From Bacteroidota bacterium (GTDB lineage: Bacteria; Bacteroidota; Bacteroidia; Flavobacteriales; Flavobacteriaceae): DNA of 64,000 bases. The DNA lies in assembly GCA_027621175.1 (NCBI GenBank), contig JAQCCM010000001.1, positions 1-64,000 of the forward strand. The letters are read 5' to 3'. Both the position numbers and the translations under genes were made by a program. Below the pieces are notes generated by a model. The model saw only the letters and a program-made list of their open reading frames with translations, was not told where the DNA came from and made no database searches. Within the stretch, counting starts at the first letter, position 1. Each line of letters begins with the position of its first letter. Shown piece by piece: positions 52,657 through 53,487 of the stretch.

Positions 52657-52791
52657 ACCGCCAAGGAACCCCTACCAAAGTAGCCTTACTTCTTCCTGAG
52701 TTATGTCTATTTAACCTTCTGGAATTCAATGCGTATGTCCAGTATAATAACAATCTAAAGATTTTGAATACAGTATATAAATGTAAAACAT
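52657..52791 (-). pseudogene. Broken GIY-YIG endonuclease gene (second copy)
   Basis: This aligns closely with the first half of the intact GIY-YIG gene at 52861-53103. Translation from the ATG at 52791 gives MFYIYILYSKSLDCYYTGHT plus one histidine, then TGA where the intact copy has TGT (Cys). One base is lost about five codons later, shifting the frame. The C-terminal half is absent. It lies directly downstream of a partial tRNA copy, in the same relation as the intact gene to tRNA-Arg. Confidence 0.85.
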
Positions 52792-52807
52792 GAAATGGGG
52801 AGGATTG

Positions 52808-52869
52808 TGATCGCGATAGGATTCGAACCTATGACCGTTCCGATTTGAAATCGGAATGCGTTATCCAGC
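52808..52869 (-). pseudogene. tRNA-like remnant C (duplicate of the tRNA-Arg 3' half)
   Basis: The T arm and 3' acceptor strand (52808-52838) are identical to those of tRNA-Arg at 53120-53150. The anticodon arm then changes to a long palindrome, TTCCGATTTCAAATCGGAA on the minus strand, 19 nt between A26 and the variable loop rather than 17. The 5' acceptor strand and most of the D arm are missing. It cannot fold as a normal tRNA. Confidence 0.8.
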
Positions 52870-53103
52870 AATTAGTTTTTCAATATATTTTCTTGATTTT
52901 TTTGCTTTGATTGAACGCTCTCTTTTGTAAGCATCTGACTTAGTCTTAAACGATTCAATGTGAACTATTTCCCAAGGAATACCTCCCTTAGTGGCCTTAC
53001 TTCTTCCTAAGTTATGTCTATTTAGCCTATCTGTAATACAATGCGTATGTCCTGTATAATAATGATCTAAAGATTTTGAATACAGTATATAAATGTAAAA
53101 CAT
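52861..53103 (-). CDS. GIY-YIG nuclease domain protein adjoining tRNA-Arg
   Basis: The 80-residue protein is a single-domain GIY-YIG nuclease: YIYILYS (GIY strand, about 3-9), HYYTGHT (YIG strand, about 14-20), conserved arginine in DRLNRHNLGRSKATK (about 25-39), PWEIVHIESF and the glutamate-bearing AYKRERSIKAKK (about 58-69). Relatives belong to the UvrC/YhbQ-like group; some GIY-YIG proteins are homing enzymes. The ATG lies only 16 bases after the 3' end of tRNA-Arg, so it is probably transcribed from the tRNA promoter. Its last codons run into tRNA remnant C, so its C-terminus was set by the rearrangement. Confidence 0.85.
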   Translation of the reverse strand: MFYIYILYSKSLDHYYTGHTHCITDRLNRHNLGRSKATKGGIPWEIVHIESFKTKSDAYKRERSIKAKKSRKYIEKLIAG

Positions 53104-53119
53104 AAAATGGGGAGGCTTG

Positions 53120-53193
53120 TGATCGCGATAGGATTCGAACCTATGACCGTCTGCTTAGAAGGCAGATGCTCTATCCAGCTGAGCTACGCGACC
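53120..53193 (-). tRNA. tRNA-Arg (anticodon TCT)
   Basis: A complete 74-nt cloverleaf on the minus strand. Acceptor GGTCGCG pairs with CGCGATC plus discriminator A (one G-T pair). The D arm has AGCTCAGCTGGATAGAGC, the anticodon arm is TCTGC-CTTCTAA-GCAGA with TCT at 34-36, and the T arm is ATAGG-TTCGAAT-CCTAT. CCA is not encoded. Confidence 0.96.
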
Positions 53194-53222
53194 TTTTGTT
53201 TTACCACTTGCTTAACGGACCT

Positions 53223-53295
53223 TGACCGTTCCGATTGAAAATCGGAATGCGCTAATCCAGCTGAGCCCTGCCTACCGTCAGGCAGGTACGCGACC
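53223..53295 (-). pseudogene. tRNA-like remnant B with inserted palindrome
   Basis: On the minus strand it starts with the tRNA-Arg acceptor GGTCGCGTA. It is then interrupted by the 20-base palindrome at 53286-53267 and continues with a D arm GCTCAGCTGGATTAGCGC and the 19-nt anticodon-arm palindrome TTCCGATTTTCAATCGGAA. The T arm and 3' acceptor are absent. Confidence 0.8.
53267..53286. repeat. Short palindromic repeat inserted in tRNA remnant B
   Basis: CCTGCCTACCGTCAGGCAGG has 7-bp arms around a small loop. It sits exactly between the acceptor and D-arm sequences; the neighbouring unit A lacks it, so it is an insertion. It looks like the small REP-like palindromes scattered in Flavobacteriaceae genomes (from memory). 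Confidence 0.65.
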
Positions 53296-53324
53296 TTTTG
53301 TTTTGCCACTTGCTTAGCGGACCT

Positions 53325-53370
53325 TGACCGTTCCGATTGAAAATCGGAATGCGCTAATCCAGCTGAGCTA
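53325..53370 (-). pseudogene. tRNA-like remnant A
   Basis: The same D arm and 19-nt anticodon arm as remnant B, ending at TAGCTCAGC on its 5' side with no acceptor strand. The T arm is missing. It lies between tRNA-Ser and remnant B. Confidence 0.75.
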
Positions 53371-53403
53371 TAACTTGCCCCAAGTGAATGAGACAAATAG
53401 AAG

Positions 53404-53487
53404 CGGAGAGACTGGGATTCGAACCCAGGCAACACTTACGCGTTGACAGATTAGCAATCTGCTCCATTACCACTCTGGCACCTCTCC
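53404..53487 (-). tRNA. tRNA-Ser (anticodon GCT)
   Basis: An 84-nt class II tRNA on the minus strand. Acceptor GGAGAGG pairs with TCTCTCC plus discriminator G. The D arm has GCCAGAGTGG, the anticodon arm CAGAT-TGCTAAT-CTG has GCT, there is a long variable arm (CAACGCGTAAGTGTTG region), and the T arm is CTGGG-TTCGAAT-CCCAG. It is first in the tRNA cluster on this strand. Confidence 0.95.

Follow-up and report, generated by a model that had tools for sequence, protein, structure and literature searches.

At positions 52657-53487 of the DNA analysed here (the window, 64,000 nucleotides: positions 1 to 64,000 of contig JAQCCM010000001.1, assembly GCA_027621175.1, from a Bacteroidota bacterium of the Flavobacteriaceae), an intact tRNA-Arg gene stands between broken pieces of tRNA-Arg and beside one intact and one broken gene for a small GIY-YIG protein. 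This raises the question of whether the array is the product of passive duplication or of a selfish nuclease gene that inserts itself into tRNA genes.

Structure of the array and of its nuclease gene

The predicted order of elements on the minus strand was borne out by ARAGORN, Rfam, repeat analysis and a domain match: tRNA-Ser, 5' tRNA-Arg fragments A and B, intact tRNA-Arg(TCT), GIY-YIG ORF, 3' fragment C and a broken GIY-YIG copy. The individual features are as follows.

53403..53487 (-): tRNA-Ser(GCT), the kept neighbour that marks the locus across the genus (ARAGORN and Rfam)
53318..53374 (-): remnant A, 5' part of tRNA-Arg, with a palindrome (53331-53349) in place of the anticodon arm (repeat and palindrome analysis)
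53296..53317 (-): linker, a copy of the tRNA-Arg 5' flank, ctaagcaagtggcaaaacaaaa (sequence and repeat)
53216..53295 (-): remnant B, a further 5' part of tRNA-Arg that has both an arm palindrome (53229-53247) and an additional CCTGCC..GGCAGG palindrome (53267-53286)
53194..53215 (-): linker preceding the intact tRNA-Arg (repeat)
53119..53193 (-): intact tRNA-Arg(TCT), the innermost element of the array (ARAGORN and Rfam)
53104..53118 (-): 15-bp spacer from tRNA-Arg to the nuclease start codon, of which an almost identical version precedes the broken copy
52861..53103 (-): intact 80-aa GIY-YIG nuclease gene, with the family-conserved catalytic residues Y5, Y16, R26 and E62
52807..52870 (-): remnant C, a 3' part of tRNA-Arg joined directly to the nuclease ORF's end; a palindrome (52838-52856) replaces the anticodon arm
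52661..52791 (-): second GIY-YIG copy, frameshifted and truncated (repeats)

Two repeats, one of 121 bp (94% identity, spacing 312) and one of 57 bp (86%, spacing 311), defined the second GIY-YIG copy; the repeat unit of the locus measures about 312 bp. The original prediction that each nuclease gene starts shortly after a tRNA 3' end, with a repeated spacer, and that one of the two is decaying was thereby upheld. Remnants A and B, which comprise 5' parts of tRNA-Arg together with its 5' flank, form an 85-bp repeat (96%, spacing 102), and remnant C, when scored as a tRNA, reached 26.8 bits, just under the Rfam cut-off of 29. Although tRNA fragments were present as foreseen, they are not plain halves: remnants A, B and C each carry a perfect 19-nt palindrome (TTCCGATT..AATCGGAA) at the position of the anticodon arm, remnant B has a second palindrome (CCTGCCTGACGGTAGGCAGG), and most fragments of related loci also contain a palindromic hairpin. 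Because of these palindromes, the reading of the remnants as simple halves was rejected. The only TTCCGA/TCGGAA palindromes in the 64-kb window are those of the remnants. The nuclease ORF is free-standing and not part of an intron or intein, as the intact tRNA lies beside it; Rfam reported no intron at the locus, its matches being tRNAs only and one irrelevant sub-threshold hit. No integrase was found among the ORFs listed at the locus, and an integrase-borne tRNA island was accordingly rejected as an identification.

The 80-aa ORF consists of a GIY-YIG domain (PF01541, E 5e-15), the sole domain found. Its catalytic residues are retained across 185 sequences (the two tyrosines in 96 and 99%, R and E each in 100%), and dN/dS values of 0.02-0.24 in the ten measured pairs indicate, by comparison of sequences, that the protein is under purifying selection. 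Its predicted fold (pLDDT 95) was nearest to UPF0213 (best match 1ZG2), followed by Slx1, with the I-TevI catalytic domain further down. The UPF0213 (YhbQ-like) GIY-YIG proteins supply the closest solved structures by both sequence and fold (1ZG2 and 1YWL); unlike the present family, two distant homologues outside the group, from Clostridia and a gut scaffold, have no tRNA or tRNA fragment. The protein matched none of the NCBIfam models, and automatic annotation is therefore likely to miss the element. It also matched none of the PADLOC models, so that a known anti-phage defence protein was rejected, and, as P0001, gave only a weak match (E 9e-4) to PHROG 314, a family of phage homing endonucleases, which does not establish membership in the SegB lineage.

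Association with tRNA genes and comparison with empty sites

Homologues were taken from 149 Flavobacteriaceae genomes (all) and from a species-wide genome collection (the 80 best), and spanned the phyla Bacteroidota, Ignavibacteriota, Cloacimonadota, Calditrichota and Neomarinimicrobiota. A tRNA gene lay within 350 bp of the nuclease gene at 138 of 189 loci, always on the same strand (138/138), as opposed to 0/30 for UvrC, which is also a GIY-YIG protein, in genomes of the Flavobacteriaceae. The expected proximity of most homologues to tRNA genes was thus observed, and the result that would have refuted it, homologues scattered without a tRNA link, did not occur. Six further nuclease genes were adjacent to tmRNA, and the remaining loci inspected were mostly contig ends, tRNA fragments only, protein genes or a separate clade within REP-like repeats. 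Relative to the intact tRNA, the nuclease was located downstream at 98 loci, upstream at 36 and on both sides at 3; the predicted placement 3' of the tRNA was therefore correct for one class and had to be amended by a mirror class of 36 loci, where the nuclease precedes the tRNA and is accompanied by 5' fragments. Downstream nucleases were separated from the tRNA by a median of 52 bp, and 88 of 95 such spacers contained a T-run, as expected for a tRNA terminator; where the nuclease was upstream, its stop codon often fell inside the tRNA gene, at a few fixed offsets.

Fragments of tRNA genes on the far side of the nuclease gene, another expected feature, were found in related loci and followed a marked polarity: 5' fragments lay upstream of the intact tRNA in 54 cases and downstream in 5, and 3' fragments downstream in 61 cases and upstream in 1. 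No fragments were detected on the opposite strand of the related loci or in shuffled sequence, and the pattern is therefore not due to chance. Tandem nuclease arrays were common among relatives, with periods of about 300-390 bp. No homologue was convincingly carried by a phage or plasmid: one weak match was obtained for each, neither of them adjacent to a tRNA, and there was no confirmed viral contig.

The gene order YbjQ-like gene, tRNA-Ser, tRNA-Arg is common to the window's genus, which allowed filled and empty versions of one locus to be compared. Two species (L130 and L132) have a clean, empty Ser-Arg gap of 70 bp, and other congeners contain at least one 5' fragment together with 3' fragments and a nuclease gene, either intact or decayed, so that the alternative outcome considered beforehand, the same array in all relatives, was not encountered. 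At L122, where the neighbour protein is 99% identical, the Ser-Arg interval measures 100 bp versus 209 bp in the window, and no intact nuclease is present. The 5' flank of the empty tRNA-Arg leads into the 5' fragment and not into the intact tRNA (71/82 identical for L126, 65/77 for L129), and the ancestral tRNA-Arg 3' flank stands behind the 3' fragment in L127 (114/122 identical). A second, independent case was provided by the tRNA-Ala that follows a universal stress protein gene, which is filled in Flagellimonas marinaquae (L050) and empty in G056 (L255): the 3' flank of the empty site stands behind the displaced 3' fragment of L050 (137/178), and no match to it was found right after the intact tRNA. 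The fragments thus lie where the ends of the ancestral gene were, which means that the DNA entered within the tRNA gene, the intact tRNA being either kept or rebuilt. The repeated unit of the original prediction does exist, but insertions into a single tRNA gene, with the intact copy innermost, account for the array better than a simple tandem duplication. Likewise, presence and absence at the same tRNA locus were found among congeners, but between species and not between strains, and no strain-level movement was shown. The displaced 3' halves matched the local intact tRNA without any difference in 39 of 76 matches; tRNA conservation is too high to tell their origin, and the counted differences, which are uninformative for the same reason, gave no sign that the rebuilt half is foreign, as it is in fungal mitochondria.

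Palindromes, target specificity and sister elements

A palindrome of the form YYCCG..CGGRR (mostly TCCCG..CGGGA) was present in 48 of 61 3' fragments, with another palindrome in 5 more, and in 28 of 56 5' fragments, with other palindrome types in a further 15; it was rare in intact tRNAs (4/162). This sequence motif was relied upon because stem length alone overstates the hairpin signal, a stem of at least 6 being found in 41% of intact tRNAs as well. In most palindromic fragments it is the anticodon arm that is replaced; exceptions are L079 (D-loop), L114 (T-loop) and the tRNA-Asp loci (T-arm), and some fragments have no palindrome at all. Similar palindromes are dispersed in 123 of 148 Flavobacteriaceae genomes, in which a reversed control pattern was rare, and the view that they are a trait of the window's genome alone was rejected. 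The TCCCGATAGCTATCGGGA palindrome and its variants reach up to 92 copies per genome in these 148 genomes, with or without detected tRNA elements. The role of the palindromes can only be inferred: they may destroy the cut site or protect the displaced halves, mark the cut site or a repair junction, or be independent hairpin elements.

Several loci present such fragments in other configurations. At L116 (G000:C9:59516), a tRNA-Gln 5' fragment with a CCTGCC..GGCAGG palindrome lies upstream of an intact tRNA-Gln, with no nuclease in the vicinity, and may represent an insertion that is one-sided or non-autonomous. One contig end of the window's genome (L115, G000:C33:1-100) carries a tRNA-Pro 3' end and then a tRNA fragment with a TCCCGATGAAATCGGGA palindrome. 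On contig G135:C5, a 5' fragment with a hairpin occurs at a tRNA-Ala at 347 kb (L268), and about 64 kb away, at 412 kb (L007), there are nuclease units accompanied by 3' fragments of tRNA-Ala and by hairpins of a similar kind; these may be the two sides of one insertion split by a rearrangement.

The target RNAs of the nucleases follow the protein tree. Over 157 rows and 24 targets, the target label changed 44 times, against a mean of 119 and a minimum of 112 after shuffling; the tree (185 proteins) was built from a short alignment of 84 columns, and many of its forks are unresolved. Several nuclease lineages with different targets can share one genome, from which it follows that the target goes with the nuclease and not with the host. 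The comparison thus indicates that target specificity is carried by the nuclease lineage.

Sister GIY-YIG genes were observed at other targets. In L173, L180 and L185 (in part also L194), they are located in NAD-dependent epimerase genes, within the glycine motif (TGGAGF|IGS). The first three form discrete elements of 286 bp bounded by 11-bp terminal inverted repeats (ACCTGTGAAAT..ATTTCACAGGT, with small variations), behind which stands a second, diverged gene start (26/28, 35/43 and 49/67 nt identical). The same 286-bp inverted-repeat element lies in a gene for a four-helix-bundle (23S rRNA intervening-type) protein in L161, where no rebuilt start was seen. One GIY-YIG clade is found 3' of the tmRNA gene (L167, L168, L175, L197, L201 and L208), with tmRNA 3'-flank repeats nearby. 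A separate clade of about 110 residues is embedded in dispersed REP-like repeats (TGAACTTGTTTCA or a similar sequence) in L190, L202, L203, L211, L212, L214, L215 and L217 and, in the window's genome, in L005 (G000:C33:138788-138988), where CCTGCC..GGCAGG palindromes stand on both sides of the gene.

Known systems, rival explanations and the homing reading

Fungal mitochondria contain endonuclease ORFs that enter atp6, atp9, cox2 or nad3 and bring a replacement end, leaving the native end behind (PMC3630166). In these mobile-ORF 'hybrid gene' elements (Allomyces atp6; Glomus atp6, atp9, cox2 and nad3), as in the present family, the native gene end is displaced behind the endonuclease ORF, and the corresponding criterion was met here by the 3' tRNA fragment behind the nuclease and the ancestral flank behind the fragment. 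The fungal targets, however, are mitochondrial protein genes with a visibly foreign inserted end, whereas the present targets are mainly bacterial tRNA genes whose halves mostly match the local tRNA, and palindromes on the displaced halves set the present family apart. SegB, a free-standing GIY-YIG enzyme encoded among the tRNA genes of phages T4 and T6, is needed for preferred inheritance of the tRNA region and for tandem tRNA-segB amplification (PMC2988022, PMC13096335). It is phage-borne and lies between phage tRNA genes, whereas the present genes are chromosomal and encode 80 aa; split tRNAs with hairpins, found in the present family, are not described in the passages of the SegB accounts that were consulted. 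REP/RAYT systems likewise combine short palindromes with a small nuclease-type gene nearby, but RAYTs are HUH/Y1 enzymes and the present family has only GIY-YIG, with a tRNA gene as its main target. Membership in RAYT/REP was rejected, the HUH/Y1 criterion not being met by a protein in which GIY-YIG is the only domain found. Genomic islands at tRNA genes similarly use the tRNA as a site that stays functional; the present unit differs in lacking an integrase, in being an insert of about 300 bp inside the tRNA, and in having polarised tRNA pieces on its outer sides. By analogy, the best reading is that the present family works like the fungal hybrid-gene elements and SegB. A literature search that did not include subscription papers and preprints yielded no account of GIY-YIG genes linked to tRNAs in bacterial chromosomes, and the phenomenon is considered real, general and, as far as the literature could be searched, undescribed.

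The locus is best interpreted as a homing-type element, chromosomal and free-standing, whose target is a tRNA gene, an explanation to which, as a whole, a probability of about three in four is given, with more confidence in the insertion history than in the action of the enzyme. The small GIY-YIG protein would cut a tRNA-Arg gene that lacks the insertion, and repair by recombination with a filled copy would bring the nuclease gene in, both cutting and copying being inferred. The old tRNA would be split, its 5' piece left upstream and its 3' piece downstream, and a complete tRNA would stay or be rebuilt in the middle, allowing the host to survive. If this intact tRNA is still a target, as is also inferred, arrays would arise through further rounds of the process or through recombination of the tRNA with its own fragments. 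Homing with a restored target is the most economical reading of the innermost intact tRNA, the fragment polarity, the one-sided variants with 5' or 3' fragments only, and the arrays. Against it stand the fact that the intact tRNA keeps the presumed target, so that the model leaves the avoidance of self-cutting unexplained, the fact that the displaced 3' halves mostly do not differ from the local tRNA, and the lack of homologues convincingly borne by phages or plasmids. The predicted tRNA-borne selfish nuclease is accordingly supported by comparison only: tRNA association, fragment polarity, insertion relative to empty relatives, the match of clades to targets and purifying selection all rest on it, and neither cleavage nor transfer has been shown.

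It is also conceivable that the palindromes are the real mobile units and that the GIY-YIG enzyme acts on hairpins in a structure-specific, Slx1-like manner, as REP-associated transposases do on REP repeats, tRNA genes being struck because they are rich in hairpins. The enrichment of palindromes in fragments over intact tRNAs, the dispersal of the same palindrome type in most of the family's genomes, the sister clade inside REP-like palindromes and the presence of Slx1 among the nearest folds all fit this proposal; it is nonetheless thought unlikely, given that palindromes are also dispersed in genomes where no tRNA element was detected, that some fragments lack a palindrome, and that isotype target specificity suggests recognition of sequence. 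Less credible still is a passive history, in which a nuclease gene landed beside a tRNA and slippage or unequal crossing-over duplicated units that then decayed, without any movement driven by the nuclease. Frequent tandem arrays with periods of about 300-390 bp, remnant halves mostly identical to the local tRNA and an exclusively chromosomal location would all be in keeping with it, but it does not predict polarised fragments, ancestral flanks outside those fragments, nuclease clades tied to 24 targets, or purifying selection. A host function, by which the element raises tRNA dosage or guards against tRNA-cutting defence systems or toxins, can be given very little weight: in its favour, the family does form arrays of nuclease units, and SegB is a tRNA-linked GIY-YIG enzyme that amplifies tRNA segments in phage T6 (PMC13096335), but the present arrays multiply broken tRNA fragments and nuclease genes rather than intact tRNAs, presence is patchy among congeners, and no known defence family was matched.

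Beyond this locus, the homing reading probably extends to a widespread family of selfish elements whose targets are tRNA genes and a small number of other essential genes, a complete functional copy of the target remaining after insertion. A bolder proposal, which remains tentative, is that of a large undescribed class of minimal bacterial mobile elements with tRNA-like hairpin termini and a structure-specific, Slx1-like GIY-YIG nuclease as sole protein, whose lineages split different tRNA genes, tmRNA and the codons of the epimerase glycine motif, always leaving a working copy of the target. If the homing reading is true, these units, of about 300 bp and with one 80-residue enzyme, would be among the smallest self-spreading elements of bacteria, would attack a very essential class of genes without killing the host, and would explain the origin of many chromosomal tRNA fragments in Bacteroidota. 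Enzyme lineages that are each tied to one tRNA would constitute a natural system for target choice by a minimal GIY-YIG nuclease, and phage homing enzymes, fungal hybrid-gene elements and the present family would share a single strategy, in which a conserved essential gene is broken and a working copy is returned.
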